Part shown: positions 3,348 through 33,354 of the stretch, piece after piece
Position numbering within the stretch: the stretch's first letter is position 1
Layout: every line of letters starts with the position of its first letter
Assembly: GCA_027604185.1 (NCBI GenBank)
Contig: JADGKB010000133.1
Span: 1 to 33,354 of the forward strand
From: Boothiomyces macroporosus
Taxonomy: Eukaryota; Chytridiomycota; Chytridiomycetes; Rhizophydiales; Terramycetaceae
DNA length: 33,354 nt
Direction: 5' to 3'
Notes under the pieces: generated by a model
What the model was told of the DNA's origin: nothing
The model's database searches: none
What the model saw: the letters and a program-made list of their open reading frames with translations, nothing else
Program-made: the position numbers and the translations under genes

Positions 3348-6195
3348 TCATTTTATCTCGTTTGAAAAAATTACAATATCTCTTTGGTCTACGCCAACCG
3401 AGAGTAGAAGATCGACTACTGTTCCCTGCATTGAGTTTGGTCCAACAACCACTATCTTTTGCCTTTGGGTTCTGTTAAAGTCCCAGAGATCAGAAACTAG
3501 TGCGCCAATGATATTTCTGTCTATTCGACCGTTTCCACACACGCCATAGGTTTCCAGTGAAGGTGGATAGGATTTTCTGGTAAATGTGTTCAGAATGGAA
3601 AGCTCGATAGGATAAGACAAAAGTGCATGAGAGGTGATCTCTTGGCCAAATATCTCTTCCTTCTTGCGGCAAGTGTTTAAAAGAGCTATTTTTGTAGCTT
3701 GAAGTGGGAATGTCACCGCAAGTGGGAATACTCCTGATTGATTAGTGGTCATGTTTAGGCCATAGCACCAGCCATCATAAAAGTGAGTGAATACCATCAA
3801 ATAATCACCGCTTGTTACAAATAGTTCATCACGATTTTCGGGGATGTAGTTTTGCCAGGTCTGCAATGGAATATTTGTTGGCAAGAGTAAAGAATGAATC
3901 AGTGCCAATGAAACGGAATACCCAGTACCACCCGTAATACATATAATTGTGTCATAGTTTGCATTCACCATGTTATGGAATGAAAGAGAGTTTCTATTAT
4001 CCATAGTGCTATATCGATTGAACGTATTGACGGAGCTACTTCTGTTATTATTAAGCGCAAGAGGCATGGCCGGATCAACTACTGGGTCGCCAAAAGGCCC
4101 GCTGATTTGGAATTGCCTATCGCCCGGCTCTTGATCACACAAGAATTTCGATACATTGCCATCAGCATATGCTTTGACAAAGATTTCAAAAGTATTGAGT
4201 TCAGAGTTGACTGGAGTGTAGTAATTTTGGTGGTACTTTCCATTCTTAAAGTACTTGATCAACACACTTTGGCCAGGCAGTATTTTTGGTTGATTAGCTC
4301 TGATATCAAACGGATATAGGATGGAAAACTTGATTCTGTATATGGGCGACTCTGATTTTGATTCCAGCGTTTTAGCGACTATCGCATATCTTCGTGGCTC
4401 GAAAACGTCAAATTTGATTTCATCCTTGTTGGTTGCAATTTCCCCTACGACTAATTGAGACAGTTTTTGAATTGCAATTCTAGAATGTACATGAGTTCTA
4501 CGAGCGCGTAACACATGCTTCCATTCAGATTCGGTGATCAAACTTGGATCCAAGTCAAAATCATGCTTAAATACTGGTCTTTGGCCCAAACTGGCGACAC
4601 TGCCTCTCTTTGTGACTTCAGAGCTAATAGGTTGATAGGCTTTCTTTTTGTTTGACTTTTGGATTGGTTTTGGAATAAATGACTCAATGTCAAACCCACT
4701 TTCGTTGAAATAGTCTTGAGTGATGTCTGTTCCTGCAACTGAATTTAAAATCAGCGCTCCTCCAGGGTGACTGTTGATCCATTTATCAATTCGAATTACG
4801 TACTTTCCTTCAGCAACCACTAACCAGTCTCCATTTTGCAAGGCTTCCCCGATTTCTTTCCATGTGTAAGACTTTAAGTTGTGCTCTTTTGGTATCAAAG
4901 GCTCAGCACTCCCATCAAGTTTCCTTAGGCGATTTCCTACTTTTTCGTACTTGAAACCCGGTAGCTGCAATCGATACTGTTTGTAGATTTCCGCCACTAC
5001 ATATATAATCACCCAGAAAGACAGGTCAATAAAATACAGAATCCATGCCAACAGTCCCCTGAATTTCACTTCCTCCCAAGGAAAGAGTACATTGAGCCCT
5101 AGTCCTGCTTGAACAAACGCGGCAAGTAAGAGTGCTCTTCCAAGCCAGTGGTGTACCGTTGATACCCACCAAAATCTACTTCTGTCAATGTTGATGGATT
5201 CAATCTTCAGGGAAAGTCGATTTGCAATACCAAAGAAGCCTTGAACGTAGGTAAATCCAACTATAAACAGACCAGTCAACGAATGCGGCCTTAATATTGT
5301 TCCATAGTAAGTATTTGAAATATTTTCGGGCAAGCTAAAGATTACATATAGAGCGGAAGCCATTACACCAATGAATGAACCAGCAGCTTGAATAAATACG
5401 TGAATCTTCATCCACCTAAAGTTAGAAAAATATTACTGATTGAGGAATTTAAAGTAACGAGTAACGAATATTGAAATTGGGAAAAGGAATAGCCAAATTG
5501 ATGCCATTGCTATAGCGTGAACTCTTTTTTCAAATAATCCATCAGGCACAGATAGATTGATATCAGAGGAGAGGTAGTTGATAAATGTCCGTCCTCTATA
5601 GATGCCATGCCAGTACATCCATCCATCTGAATTAGCAATCAAACTTACTTTTACCAGCCGGGTCAGGATTGAGATTAAACGCCCACAACTGAGGAATTCT
5701 TGTTACATCCAAATTTCGATGTAACCCGTCATTTGGACTGGTGATTCTAGTAAATTCAACGATTGCAACGTTTCTAGTAACATCACAAACTTGCGTCATT
5801 GTAGCCAAATTGAATACTTTGTTGTTTGGGGAGGGTATTGGCGGGGCATAACCTCCAGGATTAATGGCTTCAATCACAGTAGGTTTTGTAGCGCCTTCCT
5901 TACAGTAAGCTACCAAAAATTCCCCAGTCAGCATACTTTGTCCATATGCCATTCCAAACCAAATGCCTTCGACTGAGGTGTTTGGTGTGTCCAACGAATA
6001 CTGAGTGCCATTGAATACCATGGCTCCATGAATAGTCTCGTTCGGTGTCCCTAAATTCAGAACACTCCAGTAGAACTGATAGCCCAAACTGTCATCAAAA
6101 GTGTTTGCAACAAATTCAAACTTTGATAGCAGAGGGTCTGGATTGCTGTTTTTGATACAGAATATTAAACCTGCTAGTAGTAAAGTATATATCAT
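3348..6195 (-). CDS. DOMON-cytochrome b561-cytochrome b5-reductase protein with nested SH3 domain (paralogue B)
   Basis: Spliced model complement(3348..5415, 5437..5626, 5649..6195) gives 934 aa with introns of 21 and 22 nt. The ATG at 6195 begins a short signal peptide. Residues: DOMON about 22-185; b561 with candidate haem histidines 219, 251, 290 and 335; cytochrome b5 HPGG at 462; a lysine/serine-rich insertion; the second b5 helix THVHS with His 556; FAD module about 585-690 (YYTPV, SGPFGDP); NAD motif GGTGY at 741-745; SH3 about 764-816 (RDELF, GDYLMVF, DGWCYG, GVFP); then the remaining NAD strands ending in VVVGPNSMQ, the counterpart of the CGPPPM motif. The domain order matches paralogue A, but none of the four introns is shared between them. 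AATAAA overlaps the TGA stop. A TGACGTCA site lies 104 bp upstream of the ATG. The role is probably transmembrane NAD(P)H-driven reduction; the substrate is unknown. Confidence 0.9.
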
Positions 6196-30124: not shown

Positions 30125-30669
30125 ATGCAGAGAGCAACCACCACAGCGCTAAGGAGACTAATGACAGAATACAAGGAACTCACTCTAAATCCACCAGAGG
30201 GTATCCAAGCCGGACCAGTATCAGAATCAAACTATTTTGAATGGGAGGCACTAATAAGCGGACCAGAAGGAACTCCATTTGAAAACGGAATATTTGTTGC
30301 TGAGCTGAAATTTCCCAAGGATTATCCGCTATCACCTCCAGTAATGAAATTCACAAGTGAAATATTCCATCCAAATGTTTATCCAGGTACTTTACACTAA
30401 CAAAGATGGAACAGTCTGTATATCTATTTTGCATGCTCCGGGAAATGATCCTAATGGATATGAGCATGCCAGTGAACGGTGGTCACCAGTTCAATCAGTG
30501 GAAAAGATTCTGTTGTCAGTTGTCAGTATGTTGGCAGGTAAAACTATACTAACAAGAACCAAATGTGGATAGTCCTGCTTCTGTTGAAGCTGCGAAAATG
30601 TGGAGATTGGATAGAAAGCAATTTGATTGTTTAGTCCAGGATTGTGTGAGAAAGAGTTTGGGATTGTAA
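30125..30669 (+). CDS. UBC7: Ubiquitin-conjugating enzyme E2, Ubc7/UBE2G2 type
   Basis: Exons 30125..30386, 30406..30537, 30557..30669 (168 aa; both introns 19 nt, gtactttacactaacaaag and gtaaaactatactaacaag). An in-frame ATG at 30083 would add 14 residues; 30125 gives the usual family length and N-terminus ([20 protein letters not shown]). The E2 core shows [16 protein letters not shown], with Cys as the ubiquitin thioester site. The acidic-loop insertion [20 protein letters not shown] after it is diagnostic of the G2 class, and [18 protein letters not shown] follows. The family works in ER-associated degradation with Cue1/gp78-type partners. The motifs spanning both splice joins are exact, which makes these introns among the best supported in the window. 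Confidence 0.96.
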
Positions 30670-30680
30670 GAATAAAACAG

Positions 30681-30799
30681 TGTGCAAATTCCAACTATGT
30701 GTTTATTAGGTGTGCAAATTCCAACTATGTGTTTATTAGGTTACAAATTCCAACTATGTGTTTATTAGGTGTGCAAACTCCAACTATGTATTTATTAGG
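30681..30799. repeat. ~30-bp minisatellite between Ubc7 and the carrier gene, AATAAA per unit on the minus strand
   Basis: Four units: 30681-30710 and 30711-30740 identical, 30741-30769 (29 bp, TTA for TGTG at its start) and 30770-30799 (two substitutions). Read on the minus strand each begins CCTAATAAA. The fourth copy supplies the stop codon (30795-30797) and first poly(A) signal of the carrier gene. Confidence 0.95.
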
Positions 30800-31713
30800 T
30801 ATTAGACTTTGAAAATGCATTGATTGATTCAAAAACAAATATGGCAGCCCCGTTTGTGGGAAATGAACGAAGGAAGCAAGGAACAAAGCCGCGATAAAAG
30901 CCTTTAATCCCTTCCGTCCTTAGAATATACTTGAAGCAGTTGTAAATATTTGTGTATGGTGCATTCACATCTGGTCTAGTCATTAGCCTGTTTTTAATGA
31001 CATCTACATTAGCATTAGATTACCGCAGGGAAAAGATATCGTCCAAAAAGTATTGGCTGCCAATCCACCAGCAAGGAACGGAATCATTGATTGATCAACA
31101 TACTTTGAGAGTTGCTGGGTGTAAATTTCATACGATCCCCACAATACCCAAAACCAAGATCTGAACAAAAGACATCCATCAAGCCCGCGATACAATCCTC
31201 TAATCCCGCTCTGGTTATATAACTGTTTGGCACAGTCGATTGGCCCGCTGTACCTTTTAGTTTCATACTGAATTTGAAGTTTAGCTTTTAGCAATTCAAT
31301 TGAAGTAGCTACAAAGGATACTACAAACCCAGCACCTAATCCGGCAATCGAATGTTGAGCTACAGTAAGAGGTTCATCTCCATTCTTTAATAATAGTCTA
31401 AAATTTGTAAGAGACCCTAGCTGAACAGAATCCATTAATGCCCAACCAAATAATGGCGGAGTAGCGCCTACATTAGATAATGCTACCTTTATACATTGCA
31501 GCGAAACCTTCTTTTCTTATAGTCGATATCAAACAATCCAGTGGGCCCTTAAAGCGTCCAAATCCGCCCTCAGTTTGCATGCGCACTTTAATAGTGTCTG
31601 GTTAGCGATTGAATACCAAATGGATGGCCGATTACTAGCTTTGTTGCTCCTGAAAATATTCCTGCAACGAATCCCACAAAGTTTTCCTTGTCCATTTTTG
31701 ACAAGATTTTCAT
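30795..31713 (-). CDS. Mitochondrial carrier family (SLC25) protein
   Basis: Spliced model complement(30795..31003, 31024..31467, 31487..31597, 31617..31713) gives 286 aa with introns of 20, 19 and 19 nt. A second in-frame ATG at 31695 (MDKENFVGF) is an alternative start. Three ~100-residue repeats with carrier signatures are seen: GHPFDTIKVRMQ (completed by the 31598-31616 intron), TSIELLKAKLQ, and SFPCDVIKNRLM (completed by the 31004-31023 intron). The Pro of the second signature is Ser. Glycine-rich GLYRG/GFYRG motifs follow repeats 2 and 3. The family exchanges metabolites across the inner mitochondrial membrane; the substrate is not assigned. The stop lies in the minisatellite. It is divergent from the formin-like gene, with 148 bp between starts. 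Confidence 0.9.
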
Positions 31714-31861: not shown

Positions 31862-33354
31862 ATGTCAAATATATTTGTTTTTACGTCAAAAGGAAGTGTA
31901 TTGATAAAGTATGAACCTGAATGTACAATTGAATGGTTACTGGAGAGTTGCACAGAACGTTTGACAACAAGAGGACTTGCAGAACCATTAACAACGGTAA
32001 AAACCGACGATGGAAGAACCGTCGACCCTGAAGAACTTATAGAAAAGATATCGCAGGAACACCCAGTACGTTTCCCTAACCTAGGCGCTATTATTATTGA
32101 CTAATACAGAACTTTCGAATTTACCAGTCGTCGCTAAAACATTCTTTTTGCCGAAGGTGTTGAAGCAGATGGAAAGCGATGCACTACAACGAGCTCAAAC
32201 CATTGCATCTGGGAAACCGGTGGAAGATGATTCACAAGCAGAGTTGTCAAAATTACGAAGTCAGACTTTGAAAAAATTTTCAACTGGAACTGGATTAACC
32301 AGGAGGGATGCAGCCAAACGGAGCACTAGATTTGGTCCATCTGCAGCCGCCCCTGAAGATGCTAAACTTAACCGTTTAAGTACTCTGTGGGATAAACTAA
32401 TGGTTGAAGATGAAGACGAATCTGTGGATCCTATGCATTCGGAAGAATCAATCAAAGGATTTTTAGACCGCTCGTCTCGTATGTCATCTAATTCCACAAT
32501 TAACATCGATGAAGAGGGTAATGAACCCCATAGAAGATCAAAATCTCATAGTAAATCTCCTTCAAGAGGAGCCTCGCCAGCAAGAGACAGAACTTCAATT
32601 CTAAAGAGAGACAGAAACAGAAACTCAAAGACAATGTCTACTCGTTCGGATGCTTTGGCAAACCAAATTGAGCAAATGCTTGACGATGTCAGCAAAGCAG
32701 AGGTACTAAATAGACTAACATAGAATGAAAACAAGGAGGAACGAGTAGAAAAAGTAGGCACTACTAATCATAGGAAACTGTCACTGTTACTCAAACCACT
32801 ACTGTTGTTACCCAAACTACAACTGTGGTGCAGGAAACAGTAGGAGAATGTTAACCCTAGGTTGTTCCAATTGTTCCTAGTGGAGGAAAGAAATTGCCTA
32901 AATGGCACCCTGACTATGGAAAGGATGAATCTTCAGTGCCAAGTGTACTTAGTAGTATTCCACCTCCTCCACCGTAAATTCTTTTTTTAATTTAGTCCAC
33001 CACCAGTAATTCCTATTGCTCCGTATAAATTATCTAACTCTAGTCCTCCACCTCCTCCACCACCGTATCTAGACCTTAACCCTAGACAGTAAAATAGAGC
33101 TAATCTGTAGACTGCAAGCTGTTGCAGGAGGACCTCCGTATTCTCTTACTAACGCTAGACCGTACAAAATAGTTAATCATAGACCGTAAGTATTTTCTTA
33201 AAGATAGACCACCTCCACCACCAGGAATGGGTATTCCACCACCTCCACCGTACTCGACTTACTAACTCTAGACCGTAAGTGTTTATTAATGATAGACCTC
33301 CAGGAATGGGCGGACCACCACCACCGTACTCGATTTACTAACCATAGACCGTAA
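31862..33354 (+). CDS. Poly-proline cytoskeletal protein, formin-like, 3' end beyond window
   Basis: Exons 31862..32065, 32085..32702, 32724..32753, 32774..32839, 32861..32973, 32996..33022, 33044..33064, 33086..33088, 33111..33137, 33159..33161, 33183..33185, 33208..33249, 33272..33274, 33296..33325, 33348..33350, then an intron leaving the window. The ATG at 31862 (MSNIFVFTSKGSV) opens a ~75-residue compact domain I do not recognise (DDGRTVDPEELIEKI). A charged linker with RS-rich segments (SHSKSPSRGASPARD) and a Thr/Val-rich repeat (TVTVTQTTTVVTQTTTVV) follow. Then comes poly-Pro with PPPPGMG repeats, as in formin FH1 regions that recruit profilin-actin. No FH2 is visible, so a WASP/verprolin-like protein remains possible. 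Confidence 0.6.
33138..33354 (+). other. Array of 21-22 nt introns separated by 3-nt exons
   Basis: Introns 33138-33158, 33162-33182, 33186-33207, 33250-33271, 33275-33295 and 33326-33347, plus one starting at 33351, are all GT-AG with a branch-like element. They fall in phase 2 after CC. Exons 33159-33161, 33183-33185, 33272-33274 and 33348-33350 are each just ACC, so each adds the last base of one Pro codon and the first two of the next. A further 3-nt exon (ACA) is at 33086-33088. Confidence 0.7.

Follow-up and report, generated by a model that had tools for sequence, protein, structure and literature searches.

Putative arrays of single-codon exons between micro-introns of about 20 nt in proline-rich regions of the chytrid Boothiomyces macroporosus

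The DNA analysed here, the window, is the whole of one contig (G000:C133, 33,354 bases) of the 15.2-Mb, 216-contig assembly of Boothiomyces macroporosus, a chytrid of the order Rhizophydiales, family Terramycetaceae. At its right-hand end lies a gene whose predicted protein was 100% identical, in a protein search, to the partial protein HK103_001344 of this species. The public HK103_001344 model (P0109) is spliced like the present model across four introns of 19–21 nt, and its protein terminates just upstream of a dense cluster of further micro-introns, here called the array. Because the contig ends where the window ends (33354), the array is truncated by the assembly. The features are as follows.

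31862–33354, plus strand: gene HK103_001344, 3' end missing; 333 aa in the public partial model and 397 aa, up to the contig end, in the present one
32066–32084, plus strand: ordinary micro-intron, 19 nt, read across alike in public protein P0109
32703–32723, plus strand: ordinary micro-intron, 21 nt, in agreement with P0109
32754–32773, plus strand: ordinary micro-intron, 20 nt, in agreement with P0109
32840–32860, plus strand: ordinary micro-intron, 21 nt, in agreement with P0109
32974–32995, plus strand: array intron 1, 22 nt, phase 2
33023–33043, plus strand: array intron 2, 21 nt, phase 2, frame open if retained
33065–33085, plus strand: array intron 3, 21 nt, phase 2, frame open if retained
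33086–33088, plus strand: predicted 3-nt exon ACA
33089–33110, plus strand: array intron 4, 22 nt, phase 2
33138–33158, plus strand: array intron 5, 21 nt, phase 2, frame open if retained
33159–33161, plus strand: predicted 3-nt exon ACC, one proline
33162–33182, plus strand: array intron 6, 21 nt, phase 2, frame open if retained
33183–33185, plus strand: predicted 3-nt exon ACC, one proline
33183–33354, plus strand: probable tandem duplication of a unit, introns included (alignment of 33183–33274 with 33272–33354)
33186–33207, plus strand: array intron 7, 22 nt, phase 2
33250–33271, plus strand: array intron 8, 22 nt, phase 2, sharing 19 of 22 positions with intron 10
33272–33274, plus strand: predicted 3-nt exon ACC, one proline
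33275–33295, plus strand: array intron 9, 21 nt, phase 2, similarity 0.82 to intron 7
33326–33347, plus strand: array intron 10, 22 nt, phase 2
33348–33350, plus strand: predicted 3-nt exon ACC, ahead of the cut intron
33351–33354, plus strand: start of an eleventh intron (donor GTAA), truncated at the contig end

A preliminary description of this DNA had listed ten complete GT-AG segments, a cut eleventh and five 3-nt exons between them. All were found where it had placed them: the complete segments have the form GTA...AG, five are 21 nt long and five 22 nt, all ten are in phase 2 as claimed, and four of the exons are ACC and one is ACA. It had also held that keeping any segment breaks the frame or brings in stops. 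This is wrong for four of the ten (those starting at 33023, 33065, 33138 and 33162), each of 21 nt, which leave the frame open when kept singly; the other six each introduce a stop. The intron likenesses it had pointed out are real, introns 8 and 10 differing at 3 of 22 positions and introns 7 and 9 being alike to the degree listed above. Its term FH1-like for the coding unit fits the composition, but a domain search of the 397 aa present (the contig ending within the array) gave no formin domain, and the closest relatives, the gene's own protein aside, are nameless or uncharacterised proteins. A formin assignment for the window gene is therefore unsupported. Elsewhere in the window, a gene resembling those for ubiquitin-conjugating enzymes has two introns of 19 nt (30387–30405 and 30538–30556), and just past it lie about four tandem copies of a unit of about 30 nt (30671–30800).

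A search for FH2 domains returned a gene on contig C103 (PF02181 at 1.9e-56) in which an array of about 1.1 kb, at C103:30200-31340, makes up the FH1 region. Once its 49 introns (38 in the array region) are taken out, one predicted diaphanous-type protein of 1221 aa results, consisting of an N-terminal region, an FH1 of repeated poly-proline and Gly-Met-Gly, FH2 and a tail. The 38 array introns enclose 27 single-codon exons, and the frame continues into FH2. A letter-identical protein came from a Viterbi model that was given the start ATG and whose splice signals had been learned from 102 introns outside the arrays. One match was a Globomyces protein carrying PF06371, PF06367 and PF02181 (68% identity, 40% of the query), and no named Boothiomyces protein was among the 52 formin matches. 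By its FH2, N-terminal DRF regions and proline-rich FH1, the C103 gene is classed as a diaphanous-type formin. A second formin, on C140 (locus L009, C140:6500-14500, at about 4826–4900), has an uninterrupted proline-rich stretch, so proline tracts are not split in every case; (CCN)8 without an intron was matched seven times at four loci in the genome, the C140 formin among them.

A third array lies in another C103 gene, on the strand opposite to the formin, which has 42 introns in a proline-rich region (the count depends on the parse, with 44 in a second and 37 in a first simple parse) and an SH3-like C-terminal end. The Pfam SH3 match of this gene was weak (E 0.00047; 20.1 bits where the cut-off is 22.9), Pfam showed no Abi domain, and its candidacy as an Abi homologue was dropped. 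Directly upstream, on the minus strand at about 6470–5360 of locus L043 (C103:1-9500), is a gene for a WW-FF protein (Pfam WW_TCERG1, FF, WW). PRP-40, a factor linked in worms to the splicing of microexons, is likewise a WW-FF protein; the neighbourhood is probably a coincidence.

Taken together, the three arrays contain 90 introns of 19–24 nt, 88 of them in phase 2, with 44 exons of 3 nt (ACC 38, GCC 2, CCC 2, TCC 1, ACA 1) and 8 exons of 6 nt. Every intron of the formin and window arrays is in phase 2 and every exon between two introns is a multiple of 3 (37/37 and 9/9, respectively), while the third array departs from this in 2 of its 42 introns and 2 of its 41 exons. With such phases and exon lengths, a donor could be joined to almost any later acceptor without loss of frame, and an error of skipping would mostly shorten a proline run.

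The segments were then compared with chance. In 32974–33354, TAGNNNGTA was counted 5 times, whereas 5000 dinucleotide shuffles averaged 0.20 and never exceeded 3; for two segments flanking a 3-nt exon the count was 4, with the shuffles averaging 0.006 and reaching at most 2. Genome-wide, the pattern CCGTAN{13,21}TAGNNNGTAN{13,21}TAG gave 41 matches, all 41 in the three arrays (24 + 13 + 4, the 4 being those of the window), and its backward control gave 14. The pattern TAGACCGTAN{13,21}TAG gave 38, 37 of them inside the three arrays and the remaining one on C21, with 27 in the control. Random matching as the source of the window segments is ruled out by the shuffles and the genome-wide pattern search.

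The size of introns in this genome was estimated from the distances between GTA and a branch-like motif plus AG, counted on both strands of 100 kb outside the arrays. An excess was present at 19–23 nt only (22, 39, 32, 9 and 7 at successive lengths), compared with a background per length of 6.06 (sd 2.6, maximum 13) over 41–200 nt. A gene finder run outside the arrays without a length prior proposed 167 introns, 107 of up to 30 nt, 11 of 31–60 nt and 49 longer than 60 nt; several of the long ones begin and end at good micro-intron sites and span two good micro-introns, and look like stretches that were skipped over. Later iterations of the gene finder drifted to long false introns, and only the array parse was used. 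From the run without a length prior, 102 ordinary introns of 18–24 nt were chosen for comparison. Since they were chosen by length, their lengths are no independent evidence, and the claim that introns are small here rests on the distance spectrum; since they were found via the frame, ordinary introns that are frame-neutral are under-counted among them.

Array introns closely resembled this comparison set in their donor, branch and acceptor signals. The weight-matrix splice score was 12.99 (sd 3.1) for the 90 array introns and 13.42 (sd 2.8) for the 102 ordinary introns, a branch-like motif was present in 77/90 and 81/102, and the array lengths of 19–24 nt fall inside the genome's own distribution, which peaks at 19–23 nt outside the arrays. 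The position is what sets the arrays apart: ordinary introns rarely follow CC (1 of 102) and their phases are mixed (50/34/18), so that the array context is special.

We consider it very probable that the arrays consist of ordinary spliceosomal micro-introns situated at CC|N in the proline regions of at least three genes, that these introns are excised singly with each NCC exon included, and that local duplication added copies. On this explanation the segments would be spliceosomal introns at the lower size limit (19–24 nt), in a chytrid whose introns appear mostly to be so small, and they would have accumulated at the CC|N of successive proline codons, leaving many one-codon (NCC) exons. Each intron of about 20 nt would be recognised as a unit, by intron definition, with no need for recognition across a 3-nt exon. 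The exons are indeed too short for exon definition, as had been proposed for the window, and intron definition would be required here. Two spliceosomes can hardly fit 3 nt apart, so removal would presumably be sequential, introns being excised one after another and every single-codon exon contributing one proline. Intron definition has been proposed for microexons (PMC8831610, PMC8378409), and in worms a very short upstream intron frees a microexon from its requirement for PRP-40 (PMC8378409). For the formin the expected product would have proline runs of 7–8, the commonest lengths among related chytrid formins.

As a 3-nt exon leaves the frame unchanged, the frame cannot separate inclusion from skipping, and proline-run lengths inside the window alone gave no discrimination between the two. 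The C103 formin allows a comparison. With the 3-nt exons kept, its successive proline runs are 7,8,8,7,8,7,7,7,5,5; with them skipped, they are 5,4,4,4,4,5,4,4,3,5. In the 35 best of the 52 hits (P0036–P0052, 17 of the 52 and including some plant and insect proteins, being left out), runs of at least 3 prolines between G or M numbered 181, with lengths of 8 in 104, 7 in 26, 5 in 26, 9 in 17 and 4 in 2. The final runs of the two closest relatives (P0001, P0002) are 5,5, matching the included form. The log10 likelihood of the run lengths, again from the 35 best of 52 hits, was −6.7 for inclusion and −16.4 for skipping, a ratio that is overstated since runs within and among related proteins are non-independent, so that its direction outweighs its size.

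NCC accounts for 43 of the 44 three-nt exons. Of those that depart from ACC, five do so at the 4-fold position, and only ACA does so in the CC. The introns that flank these exons are about as different from one another as unrelated introns, while the CC of the exon is kept.

Three-nt exons outside the arrays served as controls. Isolated 3-nt exons after AG gave 9 pattern matches against 35 in the backward control, so that the pattern by itself is no evidence, and three of the 9 that had branch-like motifs were examined further. In a UBE2S-like gene, an isolated 3-nt exon encodes the x of GPxGTPY. The product with the exon aligned over 90 residues with solved UBE2S chains without a gap, and its Pfam score was 99.2 bits, compared with 94.4 bits for the form lacking the exon, which is still far over the cut-off of 27. 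EF-hand loops usually have 12 residues, and in an EF-hand protein an isolated 3-nt exon completes a loop of that length; the EF-hand pair scored 36.1 bits against EF-hand_7 with the exon and 26.2 without, the cut-off being 30. Two consecutive 3-nt exons in other contexts gave 8 matches versus 9 for controls. Five of the 8 were simple or repeated-looking sequence or had no branch motif, and the other three make up a run in a POLD2-like gene (C172:5863-5972), in which four consecutive exons, ACA, ATG, AAG and ATT, lie between five introns of 19–20 nt. Keeping these four exons gave a better score with 31 of 41 POLD2 homologs, a worse one with 8 and an equal one with 2 (14 of 55 hits, scoring below 100, were excluded). 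The public POLD2 model begins inside the micro-intron run, and its N-terminus is thereby lost. On this body of sequence comparisons, the 3-nt exons of the arrays are probably included in the mRNA, and their size fits that of microexons (≤30 nt).

A different use of the arrays would be a frame-neutral lottery, in which partial inclusion yields a range of FH1 proline runs that tunes profilin recruitment and actin elongation. Any donor in the formin and window arrays can be joined to any later acceptor in frame, and small symmetrical exons are used in this manner in schistosome micro-exon genes (PMC4350168). However, the fully included formin runs are those that match the relatives, which suggests constitutive inclusion as the main form, and we regard the lottery as unlikely. 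Much less likely still is that each cluster is excised whole, as a longer intron that begins at its first donor and ends at its last acceptor, with the internal sites and the 3-nt 'exons' as leftovers. Such an intron would also keep the frame, given that all formin and window introns are in phase 2 and all their inter-intron exons are multiples of 3, and the 3-nt exons are below exon-definition size. But the distance spectrum has no excess at about 45–120 nt, and skipping would leave the formin with runs of 3–5 where its relatives mostly have 7–8; on these two grounds one long intron per cluster was rejected. In addition, internal splice sites and exon CC are intact although the intron interiors have diverged to the extent described above, and the isolated 3-nt exons suit conserved motifs of the UBE2S-like and EF-hand genes.

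How the arrays arose was approached through the similarity of intron pairs. In the formin array, two pairs of introns are identical and four more exceed all 5,151 pairs of ordinary introns. Pairs above the most similar of those 5151 numbered 6/703 in the formin, 1/861 in the third array and 1/45 in the window, 8/1,609 in total; 1/2396 between different arrays reached this level as well, whether by chance or not. The window pair has a similarity of 0.864, equal to that of the top cross-array pair, so that likeness alone is weak evidence. Introns on the two sides of a 3-nt exon were not clearly more alike than other pairs within the arrays (p = 0.058, 0.73 and 0.93), and head-to-tail copying of units of one codon plus one intron, at least in recent times, was rejected on this ground. 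The preliminary description had attributed the window array to a tandem repeat that carried its introns along. Locally this is upheld, since 33183–33274 and 33272–33354 align with both introns in order; it is visible for a minority of the introns only. The small number of similar pairs implies that most of the multiplication was old or independent: the arrays may be old, with introns that have diverged, or introns may have entered proline codons independently.

Introner-type mobile insertions could account for many introns being concentrated in a few places, and introns of different arrays are a little more alike than ordinary ones (median 0.636 vs 0.609; at least 0.75 in 144/2396 vs 238/5151 pairs). 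Yet a single one of the 2396 cross-array pairs surpasses the most similar ordinary pair, and in the three arrays plus about 100 kb no family of many near-identical introns at unrelated places was found; introners were dropped as the source and are, in our estimation, highly improbable. An assembly artefact or a decaying pseudogene at a contig end, suggested by the position of the window array and by the public model halting upstream of it, is the least credible reading of all, given that two further arrays lie inside C103 in genes whose frames both stay open as far as the C-terminal part (FH2 in one, a weak SH3 match in the other) and that most array introns differ from one another, unlike a collapsed or stuttered repeat.

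The CC|N position shared by the introns of three genes could reflect a preference during insertion, or else selection favouring exons of the form N|CC. Of six inserts in the proline-rich parts of relatives' proteins, picked by eye and judged from protein sequence only, three (one from Globomyces, two from another relative) admit a retained micro-intron, compared with 92 of 4000 random 13-mers. Proline-rich inserts in P0001 and P0110 back-translate to GTA..TAAY..AG introns of 22–24 nt, as if retained in the gene models. Such candidate retained introns hint, as a lead only, at an origin of the arrays predating Boothiomyces. A more speculative idea, which we hold to be possible though rather doubtful, is that in this lineage (CCN)n repeats are hot spots of intron birth, with a 20-nt intron per codon at CC|N; both the DNA and its splicing would then determine how long a profilin-binding proline run is, and, since every choice of donor and acceptor keeps the frame, splicing by itself might adjust or buffer the activity of the formin.

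The arrays share features with several known systems. Schistosome micro-exon genes (PMC4350168) have very small symmetrical exons whose skipping is frame-neutral, and the tiny symmetrical exons of Boothiomyces likewise keep the frame when skipped. In contrast to those genes, the exons here are single codons, the introns are about 20 nt long, only poly-proline is split and one of the genes is a formin. Nor do small symmetrical exons account for most of the coding region, as they do in micro-exon genes: the formin and the SH3-ended gene are split only in the proline-rich part, with larger exons elsewhere. Uniform micro-introns are listed in PMC10245619 for chlorarachniophyte nucleomorphs (18–21 bp), mikrocytids (16–17 bp) and heterotrich ciliates (15–16 bp), which have the same narrow size range near the lower limit; Boothiomyces differs from these in being a chytrid fungus with a 15.2-Mb assembly and in having arrays with 3-nt exons. 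Plant microexons go down to 1 nt, as in APC11 and VPS55 (PMC8831610), and PRP-40-dependent microexons occur in worms and mouse cells (PMC8378409). Like the array exons they are below exon-definition size, with intron definition as the proposed route, but in these accounts they stand singly or in twos, whereas Boothiomyces has up to 27 single-codon exons per gene. The 3-bp micro-exon of Drosophila homothorax (PMC7392893) matches in size, but is one alternatively spliced exon and no array. The literature searched, mainly open-access and seen in excerpts (including PMC13391722 and PMC9505925), contained no description of arrays of single-codon exons or of micro-introns in Boothiomyces. Single 3-nt exons and uniformly tiny introns were thus known already; what appears to be new, none having been described in that literature, is arrays of single-codon exons.

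Gene models fail at such places: the public protein of the window gene halts immediately upstream of the array and the POLD2 model starts within an intron run. If the proposed splicing is correct, a gene with up to 27 single-codon exons set between 20-nt introns would probe in the extreme how small an exon a spliceosome can handle, and would argue that intron definition alone can position splice sites 3 nt apart. Boothiomyces would then offer a fungal system for work on how small introns and exons can be, and on whether repeats seed new introns.
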